Shown piece after piece: positions 16,311 through 24,412 of a DNA stretch of 64,000 nt (positions are counted from its first letter, which is position 1; the number at the start of each line of letters is the position of its first letter). The DNA is from Nostoc sp. TH1S01 (GTDB lineage: Bacteria; Cyanobacteriota; Cyanobacteriia; Cyanobacteriales; Nostocaceae): assembly GCA_018993265.1 (NCBI GenBank), contig JAGKSW010000011.1, positions 1 to 64,000 of the forward strand, written 5' to 3'. The position numbers and the translations under genes were made by a program. The notes under the pieces were generated by a model. That model did not search any database, had not been told where the DNA came from, and saw nothing but the letters and a program-made list of their open reading frames with translations.

Positions 16311-17249
16311 CTAAGAATCTTTGTGTTTAATGATATTCAACAAATAATGTTTATAGGGACGGAGTTTTGCTTTCATAGCATACATAATTTTTTGCATAGG
16401 TGTGACTTTCGTTATTTCCCGATGGTAGCCGATATCTGGAGCGATCACATCAGGATGTATCAGCGGAAATTCCACACTATAAGTTCTTCGGTTAACTATC
16501 CTATTTCGCCTTGATTTGGTATGTGTAGCTTCGGGGCCAAATCCAATGTTGGCTACTAAATTGACAGATGGCACAATAGTCATACCAGAATTGGACAAAA
16601 TTGCAAAGTACCACTGCCAATCCCAAGTATCTACCTCATGAAGATATGCTTTTTGAAATCTCCATGCCATTCCTAAAAACAGAGCATCATCAGCCATAAA
16701 ATCTCGAATTTGCTGCTGAACTTTTGGATTAGCCCAAGCTTTGATATCGTATTTATAGCAACTCCATGCTCTTGACCAAGAAGCCCATCCCCAAACTGGA
16801 CTTGGCCAATAACAAAAGTGATAACTCAGTCTGTCGGATTTCCATTGACTCAATCCATTAGTTCCTAAAATTGTCATAATTCGTTCATCATCTTGATATT
16901 TCTCCAATAACTCCTCACAGAATCTGAAGAAACTAGGATGTGGCAAGCAATCATCCTCTAGAATAATGGCACGTTCCACTATGCTAAAAACCCAGTCTAA
17001 TCCGCTGGAAACCCGCCGACCGCAACCCAAGTTGACATCAGAATAATTCTTGAGAACTTGACAGTCCCAATCAACCTGCGAGATGATCGCACGGGCCGCA
17101 GCACAGTTTTGAACATCATCTGGTCGGTCAGGACGCGGCCCATCTGCGATTACTAAAAGTTGTGGTGGTTTGGCTTGGCGAATGGCCGCAAACACTTTTT
17201 CTGTAGTATCAGGTCGATTGAAGATTAACAAAGCAACAGGCGTTTTCAT
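16311..17249 (-). CDS. GT-A glycosyltransferase (hemolytic protein HlpA-like)
   Basis: A 312-residue putative glycosyltransferase. It opens with PVALLIFNRPDTTEKVFAAI and LLVIADGPRPDRPDD (nucleotide-sugar binding), then AIILEDDCLPHPSFFRFCEE, where the D-D/E-D-D element is the likely metal site. WPSPVWGWASWSRAW lies further on. These are features of the group often annotated as HlpA-like. It starts four bases after the nucleotidyltransferase gene on the same strand, so it is probably the last gene of the RiPP operon. Whether it glycosylates the peptide or belongs to envelope biosynthesis cannot be decided. Confidence 0.75.
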   Translation of the reverse strand: MKTPVALLIFNRPDTTEKVFAAIRQAKPPQLLVIADGPRPDRPDDVQNCAAARAIISQVDWDCQVLKNYSDVNLGCGRRVSSGLDWVFSIVERAIILEDDCLPHPSFFRFCEELLEKYQDDERIMTILGTNGLSQWKSDRLSYHFCYWPSPVWGWASWSRAWSCYKYDIKAWANPKVQQQIRDFMADDALFLGMAWRFQKAYLHEVDTWDWQWYFAILSNSGMTIVPSVNLVANIGFGPEATHTKSRRNRIVNRRTYSVEFPLIHPDVIAPDIGYHREITKVTPMQKIMYAMKAKLRPYKHYLLNIIKHKDS

Positions 17250-17253
17250 CTCA

Positions 17254-18471
17254 TTACTGCCTAAGAAGTAAGCGTTGGAATATGTATTTCACTGGTGCAA
17301 ACCCATACTTTTTTATTAAACGTATTGGTCGCAGGAAATAGTAGAGCCAAGACATAGAACTGGGGATTTTCAAAAACTCTTGATCTTCTGAGTTTGGTGT
17401 CAGCCAATAGAAAATACCATTGTTTTTGTACTCACTAATCAGCAGATTGTAGACGGCTCTTGTCCAGAGATAACTCAGCTCAAGTGAAGCATCAGCAATT
17501 AAACTGTCATTTTTCAACAGACAGTTTTTGCTCAACTGGTTGGCTAACCATTTGCTCACCAGATCAGTTTTAGCCGTTGACCAAATTTCTTCTGGTAAGG
17601 GAACCTCTAACACATCTCTAGCCATTAATAATGGTATGTGGAGGATTCGCTTAATTCTCCATCTTTCAGCTTGTTCTAGGAGTCTTGGCCAATCCATTTT
17701 GGGATAAGAGCAAATCATGGCTGCGATGTTGCAGATATCACTCAATTGTTGCCAGTTGCGTTTATATCCATTTATACATAACAGTAAGAAATGATCTTCC
17801 GGTGAGAGAGTTAGTATAGTTGTGTCCTGAAGTGATGATAGCTGAAGGCGTTGCCAAAACTCCTCTGTATTGATATGCAGTTCTCGCGGCGGGATTCCAT
17901 AGTGAAGATCTACGTTCACTTGGCAATCACTTTTCCACAATTGTGCTTGAAGATATTTTTCTTCATGTTCGCGGTCGTATAGCATGGAATAGCCATCAGC
18001 AATCAGTAGTTCTTTGGCTTTGAGAAAGTCTTGCTTGTGAACCAAAATGTCTAAGTCAGTAAACTGTCGTAGTGCCAAGTTACCGTAAGCTGACGCTGCC
18101 AAAACAGGCCCTTTGAATGGGATAGCTCGGATGTTGTGTCCTTCAAGTAACGCTAAAAGCTTGAGTAGTTCTTGGGTGAGAAAAATATTTTGCAGAGTAT
18201 TAGCGTGAGCGTAAACGCGCAGTTGAGCTAGGATATGCTGAGGTACAGCTTCTGGGTAAATAGTTTTGAGATTTTGATACAAAAGCGGCATCACCGCATT
18301 ACTAGTAGCTGTATCGATTAAGTAATTCCAGTCAATGTCTTGCTGAAGCAGTGTTTTGATTCGCTCTGCTGTTTCGGGACTGATACAAGTTCTGGCACAG
18401 CATAAAAGTAACTCTATTTCTACTCTCGTTGCTGTTGGTTCTTTAGTACGTGTCTGAATTAAGGTTGTCAT
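17254..18471 (-). CDS. Nucleotidyltransferase family protein (PF14907 type)
   Basis: A 405-residue protein of the uncharacterised nucleotidyltransferase group often found beside RiPP and lasso-type clusters. The polymerase-beta-like core is visible as IRAIPFKGPVLAASAYGN followed by LRQFTDLDILVHKQDF, with the D-x-D metal ligands in TDLD. VDLHYGIPPRELHI carries the third acidic residue. The C-terminal half is helical. It follows the membrane protein gene by about 15 bp and precedes the glycosyltransferase by four. Family members in paeninodin-like loci are thought to act in tailoring; the substrate here is unknown. Confidence 0.75.
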   Translation of the reverse strand: MTTLIQTRTKEPTATRVEIELLLCCARTCISPETAERIKTLLQQDIDWNYLIDTATSNAVMPLLYQNLKTIYPEAVPQHILAQLRVYAHANTLQNIFLTQELLKLLALLEGHNIRAIPFKGPVLAASAYGNLALRQFTDLDILVHKQDFLKAKELLIADGYSMLYDREHEEKYLQAQLWKSDCQVNVDLHYGIPPRELHINTEEFWQRLQLSSLQDTTILTLSPEDHFLLLCINGYKRNWQQLSDICNIAAMICSYPKMDWPRLLEQAERWRIKRILHIPLLMARDVLEVPLPEEIWSTAKTDLVSKWLANQLSKNCLLKNDSLIADASLELSYLWTRAVYNLLISEYKNNGIFYWLTPNSEDQEFLKIPSSMSWLYYFLRPIRLIKKYGFAPVKYIFQRLLLRQ

Positions 18472-18486
18472 AGGCTTTTATATTAT

Positions 18487-19119
18487 CTAACTCCAATACA
18501 TCTGTTGCTCAAGTTGATGCTGAATCCGAGTTTTTAGTAGTCCTACTAGTGCAATACCAGTCACGGTTGTAAATGCTAACGAACCTATCATTTCTCCTAT
18601 GAGTGGGTCTACTATTGGTAGAACTAGTGCGATCGCCAATCCTCTAGCAACTCCACCTATAAAATTGGCAAATATCCACCAAACTGCATACTGGATGCGA
18701 TTTCGTAACACCAGCCATTGAGCAATTCCAATTACCGTTGACACGAAAGGCACAATCAATAGTTGGCTCCAAAGCGACTGCATATCGACAGTTACTCCCA
18801 GTATTAACAGAGTTCCTTGAGGAAGTATCTGTACAATGCTTTCCGCAACTTTCAGCACATAAAGAATTAAGTATGTCCCAATCCAAGCATAAGCACTGGC
18901 TAGTATCCACCAACCTAAATGTGAAATGTACCTTCTCAAAACCAGCCATTGTAAAATGCCAAACAGAGGGATAGTCAAGAAAAATAACTGTCCAATCACC
19001 ACGTTCAGCAGATTAGCTATTACCCACCAAAACCATAAACTTAACAGCGAAAAGGCTAGTCGTTTGCTAACATCATAATTGATGTCTATTTTGGAGAAAA
19101 ACTTACGCACCCGTTTCAT
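18487..19119 (-). CDS. Polytopic membrane protein with internal QWLVLR repeat
   Basis: An approximately 210-residue membrane protein with about five hydrophobic helices. The module QWLVLRRYISHLGWWI is repeated later as QWLVLRNRIQYAVWWI, so the protein arose by internal duplication; this pattern occurs in a cyanobacterial family of unknown function. I prefer the ATG at 19119 (MKRVRKFFSK) because GAGGTCAGGT precedes it; an upstream ATG gives five more residues. The DNA around this start closely resembles the start of the B2 gene at 24138. It lies in the RiPP operon, after the broken exporter. Function unknown. Confidence 0.65.
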   Translation of the reverse strand: MKRVRKFFSKIDINYDVSKRLAFSLLSLWFWWVIANLLNVVIGQLFFLTIPLFGILQWLVLRRYISHLGWWILASAYAWIGTYLILYVLKVAESIVQILPQGTLLILGVTVDMQSLWSQLLIVPFVSTVIGIAQWLVLRNRIQYAVWWIFANFIGGVARGLAIALVLPIVDPLIGEMIGSLAFTTVTGIALVGLLKTRIQHQLEQQMYWS

Positions 19120-19424
19120 ACCTGACCTCATCAATGCTAATCACGCTTTATGACTTGAGTTGGAAACTAAGTGGGCATAGCTACCACCTACTGAGCATCA
19201 AGTCCTTATGAGTTCGCTTTCGACAATTCTCCCATGTTCTATGACATAGATGCGGTCAGCCATTGTTACCGTGGAGTAATTATGACTGATGAGTATGGCT
19301 GCTTAAGCTTTGATTAATTGATGAATTATGTACTGTACAAAATAACCATTTTGCAGTAATGGGAAACATAAAGTTTCAGGCTATTGACTACTAGGTTGGG
19401 AGCAAAGTGCGATCGCTGACTAAG

Positions 19425-19789
19425 AGGATGTTTGAAAAGTATTGGGCGAATAGAATGAGACTGTTGGTCAATTAACGATGGGTTAGACCCATCACCCCTA
19501 AAACCTTGATTTAGCGTTGCTTTCCCACCCAGCAATAAATTGTGGGCTAATAGCTCAAGTGCGTTGAAACGCACTGAATTTCAAGAAATTAAGAGGGATT
19601 GAGGCTGAGGGGTTAGACCCCCTATCAATTCGCCAACAGACTCATAGAATTCGCTACTACACAAGCAAAGTCCACCTGCGTGGACTAACACAAAATCAAG
19701 ATTTTCAAACCCACGTAGGTGGGTTTCGTCTGTGTCGCCGCGATTTCCAATCGCCCGGTGAGTAATAATTTAGACTTTTCAAACAACCT
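19425..19789. mobile_element. 365-bp MITE-like element
   Basis: The ends AGGATGTTTGAAAAGT (19425-19440) and, inverted, AGGTTGTTTGAAAAGT (19774-19789) match at 15 of 16 bases and look like IS ends common in Nostoc-type genomes. TAAG occurs close to both ends and may be a remnant of the target duplication. The inside has no transposase frame. It contains self-complementary blocks (ATGGGTTAGACCCAT, GGGGTTAGACCCC) and a known-type dispersed repeat. Class is inferred. Confidence 0.6.
19655..19757. repeat. Dispersed cyanobacterial repeat with paired hairpins
   Basis: AGTCCACCTGCGTGGACT and AAACCCACGTAGGTGGGTTT are two consecutive near-perfect palindromes, followed by TCGTCTGTGTCGCCGCGA. From general knowledge this double-hairpin unit recurs in Nostocales genomes. 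It lies inside the MITE-like element. Confidence 0.65.
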
Positions 19790-19915
19790 GTAAGAGTAAA
19801 AAATCAAATCTCAATACCTGTTTTTGCCTTTGACCAATACTTTGTTCTTCTCCCTAGTCAAATGGCGTAAGCTTTGCTGGATTTATGGTGTTGATGTTTT
19901 CCCAATAAATATTCT

Positions 19916-20827
19916 TCAAACTAGGGCTGATTGTATTTGCTCAGAAACATGATTTTCCACCAACTTGACTAACTCAGGTAGCAAACTTAAATCGCGGGGT
20001 CGCTTCAGACGATAGATAGTGTGTTCTTTAGCAAGAGCGGTACATTGTAGTAAGTGTGACGTACCACCACACTGATATAAGGTTGTAGGACGTGAGTGCT
20101 GCACAAGTTCCATAACTGAGTCTCTAGGATTCAAAGGCTCTATGCCAAACTCTGGATCGTCAGCCAGCACGTAAATCCGGTGGATGGGTAACGGTGTTTG
20201 TGAAAAGTTCTGAGTAAAGCGATAGCCTCTTTTTTCATCTTCTGGGTGCAGCAACACAAGAGATTCATAATCATATCCCAGTGCCGCAGCAGTTTCCCGA
20301 CTCAGTTTCATTTGCGGAAACCCAGGAGTAATTGTAACTGGTTTGGAACTTAATGCGACAGGGGCAACATCATCGGTAACAAAGCCATAGCCTTGCGCTA
20401 GAAACGCAGCTGAGGTTGAAGATTTTCCTTGACCTGATACTCCCAAAAAAGCAACTGCACCGCCATGAATATTGACTACACTGCCATGTAATACCAACAG
20501 TCCTCGCTGATACAGCAAAGTTGCCATCACAGTTCCAACCAAATAGAAGCGAATCAGTAGGTCAGAGGCATTTTGTGCGGGAACCACTACAATCTTGTTT
20601 CCACTCTGCACTAGAAAAACTGCCACTTCTTTGATGTAAACAATCGATTCTTCAAGAGAGATTTTGAGACCCCAAGGGTAGTTGAGTGCTTCTTCTGGCA
20701 AATAATCAATTGCTGTGTGGTCGTTGTCTAGATGAACGGTGACATCACATCCTCTTTGACCTGGAATGAATTCTGGTATAGGTATCTCAGACTGGATGCA
20801 AATACCATAGGCTAAGTAAGAAAACAA
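19916..20827 (-). CDS. HPr kinase-like protein of a lasso-type RiPP locus
   Basis: A 303-residue protein related to the C-terminal domain of HPr kinase. Key features are LVLHGSVVNIHGGAVAF, the Walker A loop GVSGQGKSS (129-137) and YGFVTDDVAPV (D152, D153). In paeninodin-type lasso clusters, homologues phosphorylate the C-terminal serine of the precursor; here the neighbouring precursor also ends in Ser, which supports the same role. It begins with TTG, preceded by AAGGAAATTTAAC. It lies downstream of the precursor gene and directly upstream of the broken exporter. Kinase activity itself is inferred. Confidence 0.8.
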   Translation of the reverse strand: MFSYLAYGICIQSEIPIPEFIPGQRGCDVTVHLDNDHTAIDYLPEEALNYPWGLKISLEESIVYIKEVAVFLVQSGNKIVVVPAQNASDLLIRFYLVGTVMATLLYQRGLLVLHGSVVNIHGGAVAFLGVSGQGKSSTSAAFLAQGYGFVTDDVAPVALSSKPVTITPGFPQMKLSRETAAALGYDYESLVLLHPEDEKRGYRFTQNFSQTPLPIHRIYVLADDPEFGIEPLNPRDSVMELVQHSRPTTLYQCGGTSHLLQCTALAKEHTIYRLKRPRDLSLLPELVKLVENHVSEQIQSALV

Positions 20828-21410: not shown

Positions 21411-21566
21411 TTAGCTACCAACTGGTACAATGCCGCCTCCAATAGGAGTAAGATCCACTTGTACGTTCAGAGCATCGCTTGAGCCGAGTTGTTTTACCCG
21501 TCCCTGAGTCAAGGTTTCAACGGCACCGTATACTGTCAACTCTGGTGTATTCCAAGATTTCTTCAT
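21411..21566 (-). CDS. Lasso-type RiPP precursor peptide (A)
   Basis: A 51-residue precursor. The leader WNTPELTVYGAVETLT (5-20) fits the family recognition pattern Y/W-xx-P-x-L-xxx-G-x4-LT bound by B1 proteins, with Thr20 expected at -2 of the core. The core would then begin Gly22 (GRVKQLGSSD) and its first acidic residue, Asp31, is at +10, not +7 to +9 as in known lasso peptides. The tail is rich in Gly, Val and Pro and ends in Ser51. The start at 21566 is chosen because AGGAG (21576-21580) lies nine bases upstream; an in-frame upstream start would add 13 residues. The family assignment is firm, the final product is not. Confidence 0.85.
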   Translation of the reverse strand: MKKSWNTPELTVYGAVETLTQGRVKQLGSSDALNVQVDLTPIGGGIVPVGS

Positions 21567-21784
21567 TTTTTCATTCTCCTTGTATGGGATTAATTCTTCA
21601 GACAAGCTGAAGGCATTTAACTGTGGTTTAAATGCTTAAATAATAATTCCTATATATTGAGACCCAGGCTAATGCCAAATAAGCTTTAAGTTAAAAAATT
21701 CCAATAAATAAATTCGGCTAGTTGCCAATAACAACTAAAAAGTTAGTTACCATCAAGCGAACTATATTTATCTGCGGTTAGGTT

Positions 21785-23692
21785 TTACCTAGCAGTAAAA
21801 TTCGACTGACTCAACCAAAGAGCTAAAGTAACTCCAGAAAGTATATGCAAAGAATCCTCTTTACTTTGCGGAAATTGAGAATAGTGATCATAGGCAGCAC
21901 GTAAGAATGGTAGATTCACATAAGGTTCAATAGATTGTGGTTGGTTGATCACATGTTCTACAGTTTCTCTCCAGTCCTCCAAAAAACGCCGTTGAAAGTT
22001 AAAACTAAGGTTCCCTTTGCTGACTCGCTGCTGAATCTTTGGGGGAAGAATATCTGTCATCGCATTGCGGAGAATAGCTCTCGAAAAACCATTACTAAAC
22101 TTTTGATTTGAGGGTAGAGACAGGCAAAATTCCATGAGTCGCCGATCGAAAAATGGATAGCGCCCTTCTAGGGAATATTTTGCAGTTGTCTTATCAGTCA
22201 TCTCTAAGATGTAAGGATATTGACCAGTAGTTAGACTTTGCCAGTGTTGTTGCTTGCTAGTCAAAGTTAAAGCTGGCTGGTGACTCAGGAGTTTTTGAGT
22301 ATGTTCTGCTAACTTGATTCGCTGGGCAAAAGCTGGGTTAATCAGCTGACTATTTACATTTGTTTTCCTCCCGTACTTCAGTAATCCTTGCCCTAATTGC
22401 CTAGCAGGTTCTATTAATACAGGACTAACGCAATTTGCCCAAAACAATTGACGACGTGATACTCGAAATCTTCGCCCTGTAGCCGTGATTTCCTGCATCA
22501 GAGTCAGCCAACGGCCTGTATAGAATAGCTCTGTCAAATAAAGCCATCCGTGGCAAACTGTACTGTCACCGTCCACACCGTCCAAGAAAACTCGAACGTT
22601 ATTTTGATGAGCGCATTCATACATTCCCTGATGAATGTACAAATTGGGAGCTAAAATCGGTTCTTCTTCCCGCCAAAGAAGGTCAATTAAAGGAGTCAGC
22701 AGGTCAGCACGCACATCATGAGCCTGAAATCCTCCCAGAGTTTTGACTGCATCCATATAGGGACGCTCATCAATCCAGCGCCGATCCGACTCTGGCAGAG
22801 TCGGAAAAATCGCTGAGAAAGTATGCAGCTGTTGATTCCCCGATTTAGCCAGTAGCTGGCGTGCTGTACAGGCTATTGATGAAGAATCTAATCCTCCACT
22901 TAACGTTGAGCCAATGGGGAAGGCACTCCGCAGACGACAGCGCACTGCTTCTGTGAAAACTTCCCGAAACGCTTCAGTATACTCCTGATCGGAATTCAGG
23001 CGCAGTTCGCGCTTGGGGTCTAGCGCCCAATAAGATTGCATCTGCATCTTTTGGGTGCTCCTAATTGTTAAATAATGCGCCGCAGGTAATCGGAATATTT
23101 CTTGATAGAAAGTAGTCTCCTGATCTTCCAACAACCCTTCTATATAATATGCAACTTGAAGTTCATTCAATTGGCGCGGCACTTCTTTGATGCTGAAAAG
23201 AGCTTTGATTTCTGAGGCGAAAACAAAAACTCGATTTGAGCAATAGTAGTAGAAGGGCTTAACCCCCATGTGGTCTCTGGCACAAAAGAGCTTTTGCTGC
23301 CGTTCATCCCAGATAGCAAAGGCAAAGTCACCTATTAATTTCTCTGGACATCGCTCACCCCACTTTTCGTAAGCAGCTAAAATTAGCTGGCTATCTGTAA
23401 TTTTCTCGGCTGGGTGGTCAGTAAGACTAAGCGCAGAGATGAGTTCATCTCGGTTATCAATTCGAGCATCGGCCGTGATCACCAAATTACCTGTTCGGTC
23501 AACTAGGGGTAGTTTCTCTAGCAAAGATTCTGGTGTAGTCCACAACATTCGATGTCCGAGACCAACAGACCCGCCGTACCAAACATCGGCTCCATCTGGC
23601 CCCCGATGAGCCAGAATGTCCACCATTTGCCGGATACTTTCTGGCTCTACTGGTCTAGCATCAAGGTAGTAAATACCTAAAATACCACTCAT
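21785..23692 (-). CDS. Asparagine synthetase-like lasso cyclase (C)
   Basis: A 635-residue homologue of AsnB. In lasso biosynthesis this protein adenylates an Asp or Glu side chain and closes the macrolactam. The N-terminal glutaminase-like domain keeps LAHRGPDG (28-34) but starts Met-Ser-Gly, without the catalytic Cys2 of true asparagine synthetases, so glutamine hydrolysis is not expected. The synthetase domain has the PP-loop SGGLDSSS (265-272) and the later YPFFDRRLMEF and SKGNLSF segments. Its start overlaps the end of B2 by 4 bp. Absence of Cys2 plus the neighbours argues for cyclase rather than AsnB. Confidence 0.9.
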   Translation of the reverse strand: MSGILGIYYLDARPVEPESIRQMVDILAHRGPDGADVWYGGSVGLGHRMLWTTPESLLEKLPLVDRTGNLVITADARIDNRDELISALSLTDHPAEKITDSQLILAAYEKWGERCPEKLIGDFAFAIWDERQQKLFCARDHMGVKPFYYYCSNRVFVFASEIKALFSIKEVPRQLNELQVAYYIEGLLEDQETTFYQEIFRLPAAHYLTIRSTQKMQMQSYWALDPKRELRLNSDQEYTEAFREVFTEAVRCRLRSAFPIGSTLSGGLDSSSIACTARQLLAKSGNQQLHTFSAIFPTLPESDRRWIDERPYMDAVKTLGGFQAHDVRADLLTPLIDLLWREEEPILAPNLYIHQGMYECAHQNNVRVFLDGVDGDSTVCHGWLYLTELFYTGRWLTLMQEITATGRRFRVSRRQLFWANCVSPVLIEPARQLGQGLLKYGRKTNVNSQLINPAFAQRIKLAEHTQKLLSHQPALTLTSKQQHWQSLTTGQYPYILEMTDKTTAKYSLEGRYPFFDRRLMEFCLSLPSNQKFSNGFSRAILRNAMTDILPPKIQQRVSKGNLSFNFQRRFLEDWRETVEHVINQPQSIEPYVNLPFLRAAYDHYSQFPQSKEDSLHILSGVTLALWLSQSNFTAR

Positions 23693-24138
23693 AGTCTTTC
23701 GGCTCCTTCAACAGGTGGCAATGGAGTAAAGCTGGAAAGGTCTCTGAGATAACCAATTACTACCTTTCCTTGACTTTCGACCCACGCATGAGCTTCTAGC
23801 TCACCTCCCTCTTTCTTAGCAACGCCAATTCTGAGTTCGGGGGAGTAGCCATACCTCTTCATGAGTACTTGTGTTGTGAAAGCACGGGCCAGACACTTGA
23901 CACCACCAGGCATATAACGACTACTCAAATCTACTGCTTTGACAATTTTGTCTAAATCAGTTCGGTCTACTGGTTGAGGCTTTACCCTTACTTGGCTAAT
24001 TGCAGATAATATTTGCCATAAGCGTTTAAAAGGTAACAACCACAAACCTAATCTGACCAATGTGAGCAAAATAAATGTACTGATCAATAGGTGGCGATCG
24101 CTGTGTGTAAGATTAAGAAACTTACGCAACCGCTTCAT
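23689..24138 (-). CDS. Lasso leader peptidase (B2), transglutaminase-like
   Basis: A 149-residue protein of the transglutaminase-core family (PF13471 type) that cleaves the leader from the precursor. A hydrophobic N-terminal stretch (17-37) is followed by the catalytic domain: Cys82 in GGVKCLARAF, His117 in LEAHAWVE and Asp133 in GYLRDLSSF form the expected triad. Its start overlaps the end of B1 by 17 bp and its stop overlaps the start of C by 4 bp, so translation is coupled. The sequence around its start (RBS and MKRLRKFL) is repeated at two other places in the locus. Confidence 0.9.
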   Translation of the reverse strand: MKRLRKFLNLTHSDRHLLISTFILLTLVRLGLWLLPFKRLWQILSAISQVRVKPQPVDRTDLDKIVKAVDLSSRYMPGGVKCLARAFTTQVLMKRYGYSPELRIGVAKKEGGELEAHAWVESQGKVVIGYLRDLSSFTPLPPVEGAERL

Positions 24139-24412
24139 CGCTAACCTCGATTAATCCTTCAGTCTCCAGTTTTTGGAGTATTGCCAACACTTCGCGATCG
24201 CACTGCTCTGGCTCAACTTCATATTCTACTAAAAGAGCATCCTGAATTTCACTGATAGTCCTTGGCTGCTGAATCAGATTCCAGATGCTAGCACCCACAG
24301 TATTTAGTCCGTAATAAGTCCCAGACTTAAGGTTGAGAATAACGGCCTCTCCTGCTAAATCAGACGATGTTTGTTCTTTTACCGCTACTACTCTTGAATG
24401 CCCTGTAACCAT
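24122..24412 (-). CDS. PqqD-like leader recognition protein (B1)
   Basis: A 96-residue PqqD-family protein, the RiPP recognition element that binds the leader and presents it to the peptidase. The winged-helix fold is visible as AVILNLKSGTYYGLNTVGA, then SIWNLIQQPRTISEIQDAL, then the helical end VLAILQKLETEGLIEV. It is the first intact gene of the minus-strand RiPP operon and overlaps B2. Length and order B1-B2 are typical for split lasso B proteins. Confidence 0.9.
   Translation of the reverse strand: MVTGHSRVVAVKEQTSSDLAGEAVILNLKSGTYYGLNTVGASIWNLIQQPRTISEIQDALLVEYEVEPEQCDREVLAILQKLETEGLIEVSDEAVA

Follow-up and report, generated by a model that had tools for sequence, protein, structure and literature searches.

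Lasso peptide rings are described as closed by the N-terminus of the peptide, an arrangement under which the leader has to be removed before the ring can form and which is associated with 7-9 ring residues. How could a ring be closed in a lasso-type precursor whose first core Asp lies outside that range? This question is raised by a 51-residue precursor encoded in a 64,000-nucleotide stretch of the genome of Nostoc sp. TH1S01 (hereafter the window, to which all positions refer). In the cited sections of two reviews, lasso cyclases usually activate the side chain of an Asp or Glu by adenylation and the freed N-terminus then attacks it; the N-terminus is what both name as the nucleophile (PMC13352647, PMC12427821). 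Based on a comparison of the precursor and its cyclase with their relatives, we consider it probable that the product of this cluster is a lasso-type macrolactam in which a conserved lysine, through its side-chain amine, would close the ring in place of the N-terminal amine.

A lasso gene cluster with an unusual core

The precursor ORF lies on the minus strand at 21411-21566, with a ribosome-binding site (AAGGAG, 21576..21581, minus strand) nine bases before its ATG. Its leader (residues 1-21, MKKSWNTPELTVYGAVETLTQ; 21504..21566, minus strand) is of the WxxPxLxxxGx5T type and follows the pattern W5-x-x-P8-x-L10-x3-G14-x5-T20, with both the W/YxxPxL element and a Thr at position -2 present. The NCBIfam model lasso_cyano (NF033528) matches residues 1-21 with an E-value of 1.3e-7 and 31.4 bits, below its cut-off of 33, and Pfam gave no match to the precursor. 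By the Thr(-2) rule, cleavage would fall after residue 21, one past Thr20, and the core would begin at Gly22; the ORF bears out the leader pattern of the original prediction and agrees with its Gly22 core start. The translated core (residues 22-51, GRVKQLGSSDALNVQVDLTPIGGGIVPVGS; 21411..21503 with the stop codon, minus strand) ends in GS. Its first Asp, counted from Gly22, is at position 10, as had been noted, with no Asp or Glu at positions 7-9 after the Thr-rule site. The same D10 recurs in 'Aff. Roholtiella sp.' LEGE 12411, where a cyclase 85% identical to that of the window is followed by an orthologous precursor. Since the window's precursor lies just downstream of lasso cyclase, B2 and B1 genes and its orthologue has D10 too, it is not a chance ORF, and the D10 orthologue (L050/L022) together with the lasso cluster likewise rules out a misread core. 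Judged from sequence, the system is lasso-like in leader, B1, B2 and cyclase but breaks the classical ring-position rule. Published rings, in the cited portion of the literature, have 7-9 residues (PMC10368454), so the earlier observation of a broken ring rule stands.

Three biosynthesis genes lie upstream of the precursor on the same minus strand, all scoring above curated NCBIfam cut-offs. These encode an AsnB-like lasso cyclase (C) of 635 residues (21785..23692; NF033535, 848.9 bits, cut-off 525), which our trees place in a group that we call the Lys clade; a transglutaminase-like leader peptidase (B2; 23689..24138; NF033537, 121.4 bits, cut-off 33; PF13471, 92.4 bits); and a PqqD-type RiPP recognition element (B1; 24122..24412; NF033536, 85.2 bits, cut-off 80; PF05402, 76.1 bits). 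Downstream of the precursor, also on the minus strand, lies a gene for an HprK-like kinase (19916..20827), probably a peptide (Ser) kinase, which scores 27.2 bits against PF07475 (below the cut-off of 33.3) and 27.1 and 27.6 bits against HprK_rel A and B (cut-offs 200). It is followed by the remnant of a decayed ABC exporter gene (19150..19912), a 215-residue protein with no Pfam family above cut-off, which L050 alone of the other loci compared also has (18487..19134), and an NTP_transf_5 protein that is a PsmN-like tailoring candidate (NTase; 17254..18471; PF14907, 200.2 bits, cut-off 31.2). Last comes a 312-residue protein (16311..17249) with the look, by eye, of a sugar transferase; it has no Pfam or NCBIfam match, is absent from the other clade and sister loci compared, and its link to the cluster is uncertain.

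Across 25 clade loci, the window included, homologues of the HprK-like kinase are found in 23 and of the NTP_transf_5 protein in 15, and tblastn with the window's own proteins finds B2 in 22 (not in L067, L068 or L091) and B1 in all 25. The window's C-terminal Ser51 (21414..21416, minus strand) is a probable phosphorylation site, given the clade Ser counts below and the paeninodin precedent in the part of that report cited here (PMC9266682). Together with the HprK-like gene, it suggests a paeninodin-type phosphorylated tail. The kinase or the C-terminal Ser was rejected as the cause of the odd core: HprK-like genes are about equally common in the two groups (23 of 25 clade loci versus 49 of 53 sister loci), so phosphorylation would be a shared trait.

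The exporter is the damaged part of the cluster. L050, a sister locus, has an intact ABC exporter gene of 605 codons after the kinase, and tblastn with it recognises only end pieces at 19912-19150 of the window, two of them with weak E-values; exporter homologues occur in 18 of 23 clade neighbourhoods, a number to which the window does not contribute. This decay would fit a dying cluster in which the precursor is a degenerate leftover that gives no product, a reading we regard as highly improbable. The precursor, B1, B2, cyclase, kinase and NTase frames are all open, and the leader, KxxGxxD motif (see below) and C-terminal GS are all kept relative to L050. Moreover, a 71%-identical exporter is encoded at C209:119041-120849, near the second lasso cluster of the same genome, which makes export in trans possible. 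That second cluster (L010) contains another lasso cyclase with three precursors, all of the ordinary D9 type; in one of them a Lys happens to stand six residues ahead of the Asp (ISKDVSRRD).

Collection of related loci

We collected relatives through their cyclases. Across the phylum, 16 of 386 genomes matched the cyclase family model (E <= 1e-150); within the family, 81 of 217 genomes matched the window's cyclase (E <= 1e-120), and the best-scoring were fetched; within the order, profile A2 matched 20 of 291 genomes (E <= 1e-200). The phyla of three non-cyanobacterial members gave matches in 2 of 350, 6 of 366 and 3 of 365 genomes (E <= 1e-190), counts that include genomes already known. Contigs of named genomes yielded 77 distinct loci from the best 80 of 207 places, and plasmid records four distant cyclases only. 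Precursors were read from the DNA around the fetched cyclases with a search expression that demanded T or I at the leader end, so the conservation of the leader Thr is partly built in.

The resulting 125 loci contain 103 distinct cyclases (102 once corrected), seven of the 103 with no precursor inside the distance limit. Three assignments need explanation. For L058 and L116, the matched cyclase and precursor were assigned by hand, after which the cyclases of L058 and L026 were identical. The K-type precursor of L083 was counted in the clade as L160 and not among the others, because a cyclase sequence of its own lies beside it. The second precursor of L060, 3.6 kb off and beyond the labelling distance, was later paired with its own cyclase, L146.

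A fixed distance from Lys to Asp

Our clade set comprises 35 distinct cores from 29 loci, and the comparison set 118 distinct cores from 80 loci with other cyclases. All 35 clade cores have a Lys exactly six residues before an Asp (D-6), and 33 have a Gly at D-3, the exceptions being KDFSGGD (L069) and KLGDAWD (L091). In the window, this KxxGxxD motif is Lys25-Asp31, or K4-D10 of the core (21474..21494, minus strand), and would span the proposed ring. When the Asp was picked blind to Lys, as the first Asp from core position 7 on, a Lys was still found at -6 in 32 of the 35 cores; the three without it, L026 and the two L091 cores, all contain another Asp at the right distance. When the residues ahead of the Asp were shuffled (10,000 trials), such cores numbered 5.6 on average and 15 at most, figures that ignore kinship; clade sequences share ancestry, and the core count therefore overstates the independent evidence.

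The position of the motif relative to the leader is free. In clade cores the first Asp from position 7 on falls anywhere in 7-16, and the Lys occupies position 1 (2 cores), 2 (2), 3 (8), 4 (5), 5 (9), 6 (2), 7 (2), 8 (3), 9 (1) or 10 (1), so that 0 to 9 core residues stand ahead of it while its distance to the Asp stays constant. No acid is present at position 7, 8 or 9 in 22 of the 35 cores; the 13 that have one could, taken alone, be compatible with an ordinary ring. Cores of other cyclases have an acid at 8 or 9 in 110 of 118 cases and a Lys at D-6 in 5, one core each in L010, L138, L145, L164 and L166, with the L164 core (KAGGSTD) having the Gly as well. By these counts, the constraint has moved, the Asp being fixed relative to the leader cut in the sister families and relative to the Lys in the clade. 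The two sets also differ in the leader aromatic residue (W in 33/35 clade versus Y in 113/118 other cores) and in having a Ser within the last three residues (29/35 versus 47/118).

The alignment of homologues that had been proposed as a check thus identifies Lys at D-6 and Gly at D-3 as the conserved positions of the clade. Had the core been misplaced, homologues were expected to carry Asp or Glu 7-9 residues after a conserved Gly; the window's cyclase clade, with its first Asp spanning 7-16, shows no such pattern, and the break with the 7-9 rule is genuine. A ring from Ser30 to Asp38, one of three options in the original prediction, is unlikely: the Asp38 column is not conserved, being Asn in the closest relative and Asp in 4 of 31 clade cores. 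A simply larger ring, another of the options, is possible but leaves the fixed Lys-Asp distance, with 0-9 residues ahead of it, unexplained. The third, that B1, B2 and C make a different product, comes closest; the Lys had gone unmentioned.

A fixed Lys-Asp spacing combined with a variable spacing to the leader suggests that the Lys side chain closes the ring, as this Lys is the only residue at constant distance that is able to supply an amine; the fixed spacing also argues against alpha-amine closure from residue 1. Free variation of the stretch ahead of the Lys would, on the other hand, also follow if the true core began at Lys25, by trimming or by a B2 cut before the Lys, and the alpha-amine of Lys1 then formed an ordinary 7-residue ring with Asp7. 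Such a ring would lie inside the 7-9 range given in the cited source (PMC10368454), and in L056 and L057 the Lys already is core residue 1, directly after Thr-Gln. We nonetheless judge this improbable. The residue before the Lys varies among T, P, V, G, N, S, I, Q, D, R, K and Y, and the leader Thr is kept in L165 even though nine core residues precede the Lys. A dedicated trimming peptidase was looked for and rejected as a candidate: the gene families common to at least 4 of 23 clade neighbourhoods are the cyclase, B1, HprK-like, ABC exporter, NTase, B2, glycosyltransferase and Wzz-type families, with no peptidase besides B2, and the L050 exporter has no peptidase domain in Pfam. An alpha-amine ring would also have no need for one fixed starting residue, and an invariant Lys, expected if its side chain reacts, would be unexpected for the alpha-amine reaction of a trimmed core.

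Cyclases with Lys-type precursors form one clade

In a quick tree of the cyclases, 28 rows form one clade with an SH-aLRT support of 99, and 25 of these have KxxGxxD in every precursor counted. The other three are L069 and L091, each with two precursors that have Lys at D-6 in both and lack the Gly at D-3 in one, and L025, whose contig ends before any precursor. A careful tree of 54 of the 72 rows, leaving out a wrong-frame fragment labelled L160 and 17 more, keeps the clade (23 rows) with an ultrafast bootstrap of 100, not fully settled, and an SH-aLRT of 98. Clade members with names belong to Cyanobacteria, Rokubacteria, Chloroflexota, Sumerlaeota, Deltaproteobacteria and Acidobacteria. Our searches of other phyla added seven loci (L161-L167), which are not a random sample, as they were searched for with a profile of clade cyclases. 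The cyclases of L162, L163 and L165, from the Acidobacteriota search, fall inside the clade, and all three have KxxGxxD precursors (GTGKNLGFGD twice and KPKVRGLGD); the other four lie outside, and among these L164 and L166 each have a single core in which a Lys falls at D-6 by chance.

Two genomes allow cyclase and precursor type to be compared side by side. In L083 (Anaerolineae), a K-type precursor lies 1.9 kb upstream of a cyclase that has an ordinary GWGRRWND precursor of its own. Directly upstream of the K-type precursor, at a contig edge, is the C-terminal part of another cyclase, and on another contig of the same genome an N-terminal cyclase half (L159) falls in the Lys clade; we infer that the two parts are one gene. 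The genome of L060 (G739, matched through a stretch of identical cyclase sequence) encodes two cyclases, both in the clade (L060, L146), and after each of them comes a separate KxxGxxD precursor. As a control, we took 20 further cyclase loci from the window's family, the best-scoring ones beyond those in hand. The nearest labelled cyclase is of the non-Lys type for all 20, and 19 have a precursor; all 12 new cores place an acid at 8 or 9, and none of them has a Lys at D-6. An extra pattern match in L177, by look and position no precursor, was left out.

Comparison of the cyclase sequences identified three positions, 297, 299 and 307 in the window's numbering, that set the clade apart: P, L and I occur there in 88-97% of 32 clade sequences, but in the 89 others, where D, V/I and C predominate, the share is 1-11%. 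They sit just ahead of the invariant D308-E309. Loss of a catalytic Lys at position 517, which is Arg in the clade and mostly Lys elsewhere, was rejected: in an alignment with AsnB (chain 1ct9_A), the WRQK lysine, which we take to be the catalytic one, lies opposite K559, invariant in A2.

P297, L299 and I307 could be any kind of substrate-binding change, and would be compatible with a reading that keeps the textbook nucleophile: the amine of core residue 1 would close rings of variable size (7-16 residues, 10 here), and KxxGxxD would be a recognition motif that places the Asp. We find this as doubtful as a core starting at Lys25. Rings of 22-49 atoms would be needed (31 here; 3n+1 arithmetic, computed for n up to 15), versus 25-29 for ordinary rings of 8 or 9 residues, and a recognition Lys would have no need to shift whenever the Asp shifts with respect to the leader. 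In known systems, moreover, a change in ring size of one residue significantly lowers production, according to the section cited (PMC13352647).

Unusual cores outside the clade

Departures from the usual core were also seen among cyclases outside the Lys clade. In the ordinary cyanobacterial family, L003, L007 and L112 have cores whose first acid from position 7 on is at position 10 (MFGNSKTRND, AFGQQPNVAD and FFGNSTTVKD), the L007 core beside D9 siblings in one cluster; by their sequences, these could be true 10-residue rings. L164, from the Acidobacteriota search, has two precursors with unusual leader ends, VVKNT and VVRNT, and cores (RTPGAGD, KAGGSTD) that resemble the motif with Arg or Lys. 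L117, L125 and L161 combine W-type leaders with cores that lack the Lys motif (for example QGSVPNAD), so leader Trp and core Lys are not strictly tied. In L079, from Rubrobacter taiwanensis, a lasso-type precursor beside the cyclase lacks both Asp and Glu over the first 16 residues of the core (QGQGGPPGGFNGVGNP). Core residue 1 outside the clade is often Ile (17), Val (15), Phe (7) or Gln (7) among 99 cores, a set that still contains the L083 K-type core; a 2025 paper gives, in the part cited, Gly, Cys, Ser and Ala as example ring-forming residues, with Asn as new (PMC12670498).

A proposed ring closed by lysine

Closure from the Lys side chain would give a ring of familiar size. By arithmetic, a ring from the Lys epsilon-amine to the Asp six residues on has 26 atoms, equal to one from an alpha-amine to Glu8, and for closure of n residues by an alpha-amine onto Asp the count is 3n+1 atoms, 25 for n = 8 and 28 for n = 9. 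Microcin J25, whose ring is given as Gly1-Glu8 in the passage cited (PMC12427821), has 26 by the same arithmetic. The proposed product would thus keep ordinary lasso ring dimensions, with the N-terminal residues as an exocyclic tail.

In the window, B1 would bind the WxxPxL leader, B2 would cut one residue past Thr20, and the cyclase would adenylate Asp31 (core D10). Attack on Asp31 by the epsilon-amine of Lys25 (core K4) would then close a 7-residue, 26-atom ring, with Gly22-Arg23-Val24 left as an unattached tail at the N-terminus. The ring may be threaded by the hydrophobic C-terminal part, the C-terminal Ser would probably be phosphorylated by the HprK-like kinase, and a sugar may be added by the NTP_transf_5 protein.

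For the family as a whole, we lean slightly towards a general form of this proposal: in several phyla, AsnB-like cyclases would join a Lys side chain to the Asp six residues on, making a two-tailed lasso with a 26-atom ring, an exocyclic N-terminal tail of 0-9 residues and a C-terminal tail that is possibly threaded. Threading is the part most open to another interpretation, in which the product of the Lys clade is cyclised between Lys and Asp but unthreaded, with its tail left flexible, and is no lasso. This is a sub-case of ring closure by Lys, so the two likelihoods overlap and do not sum to one; we consider it possible, if on the whole unlikely. The sequences hold no sign of threading, and the window's tail is long and rich in Gly, Val and Pro. 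Against it, the ring size is lasso-like, and the hydrophobic run after the clade Asp resembles, by eye, that of the sister family (DTFxV, DVLIF); residue D+2 is I, F, L or V in 24 of 31 clade cores.

Relation to known systems

The closest comparison is with cyanobacterial lasso peptides (lasso_cyano, lass_lactam_cya), which share the leader motif, B1, B2, cyclase family and HprK-like gene; all 18 of 18 A2 rows match lass_lactam_cya. The other cyclase groups examined mostly have the acid at core position 8 or 9 and an unconserved Lys, whereas in the Lys clade the Asp is free and the Lys is held at D-6. Graspetides such as microviridins have side-chain to side-chain lactams. Those are made by ATP-grasp ligases, and Pfam found no ATP-grasp family among the nine cluster proteins of the window that were scanned. 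Paeninodin has an ordinary ring closed from its first residue, unlike the window's core, whose residue 1 is too far from the Asp. As described in the cited portions of two reports, paeninodin and pseudomycoidin share with the window a putative HprK-like kinase, an NTP transferase, a C-terminal Ser and a WxxP leader (PMC9266682, PMC13381572).

We found no lasso peptide or cyclase that closes the primary ring through a Lys side chain in the parts of the open-licence literature covered by our search. The nearest report there is that of lariocidin B, a proposed class V lasso that also has an isopeptide bond to a Lys side chain; in the section cited, this bond joins Lys2 to the C-terminal Arg17 as a second ring beside a normal Ser1-Asp8 ring (PMC11451635), whereas the Lys here is the proposed nucleophile of the primary ring. 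One Lys-clade member has probably been published before. 'Lasso P' from Cyanocohniella sp. LLY (PMC9332814) probably corresponds to L067, which is from the same organism and has a core (QTFSKEAGTGD...) of 36 residues, like the product in the published passage. That passage describes an ordinary lasso with an N-terminal Gly, whereas L067 has Gln1, and it makes no mention of the spacing between Lys and Asp (PMC9332814).

Implications

If this reading is right, a clade of cyclases that use an internal Lys breaks the definition of a lasso by its N-terminal closure. Ring closure would be independent of leader removal, and an N-terminal extension of, or fusion to, a lasso would be allowed. It would also suggest that these cyclases hold the number of ring atoms, not the number of residues. 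For genome mining, KxxGxxD after a W-type leader offers a rule for recognising precursors whose ring may have been mispredicted or missed.
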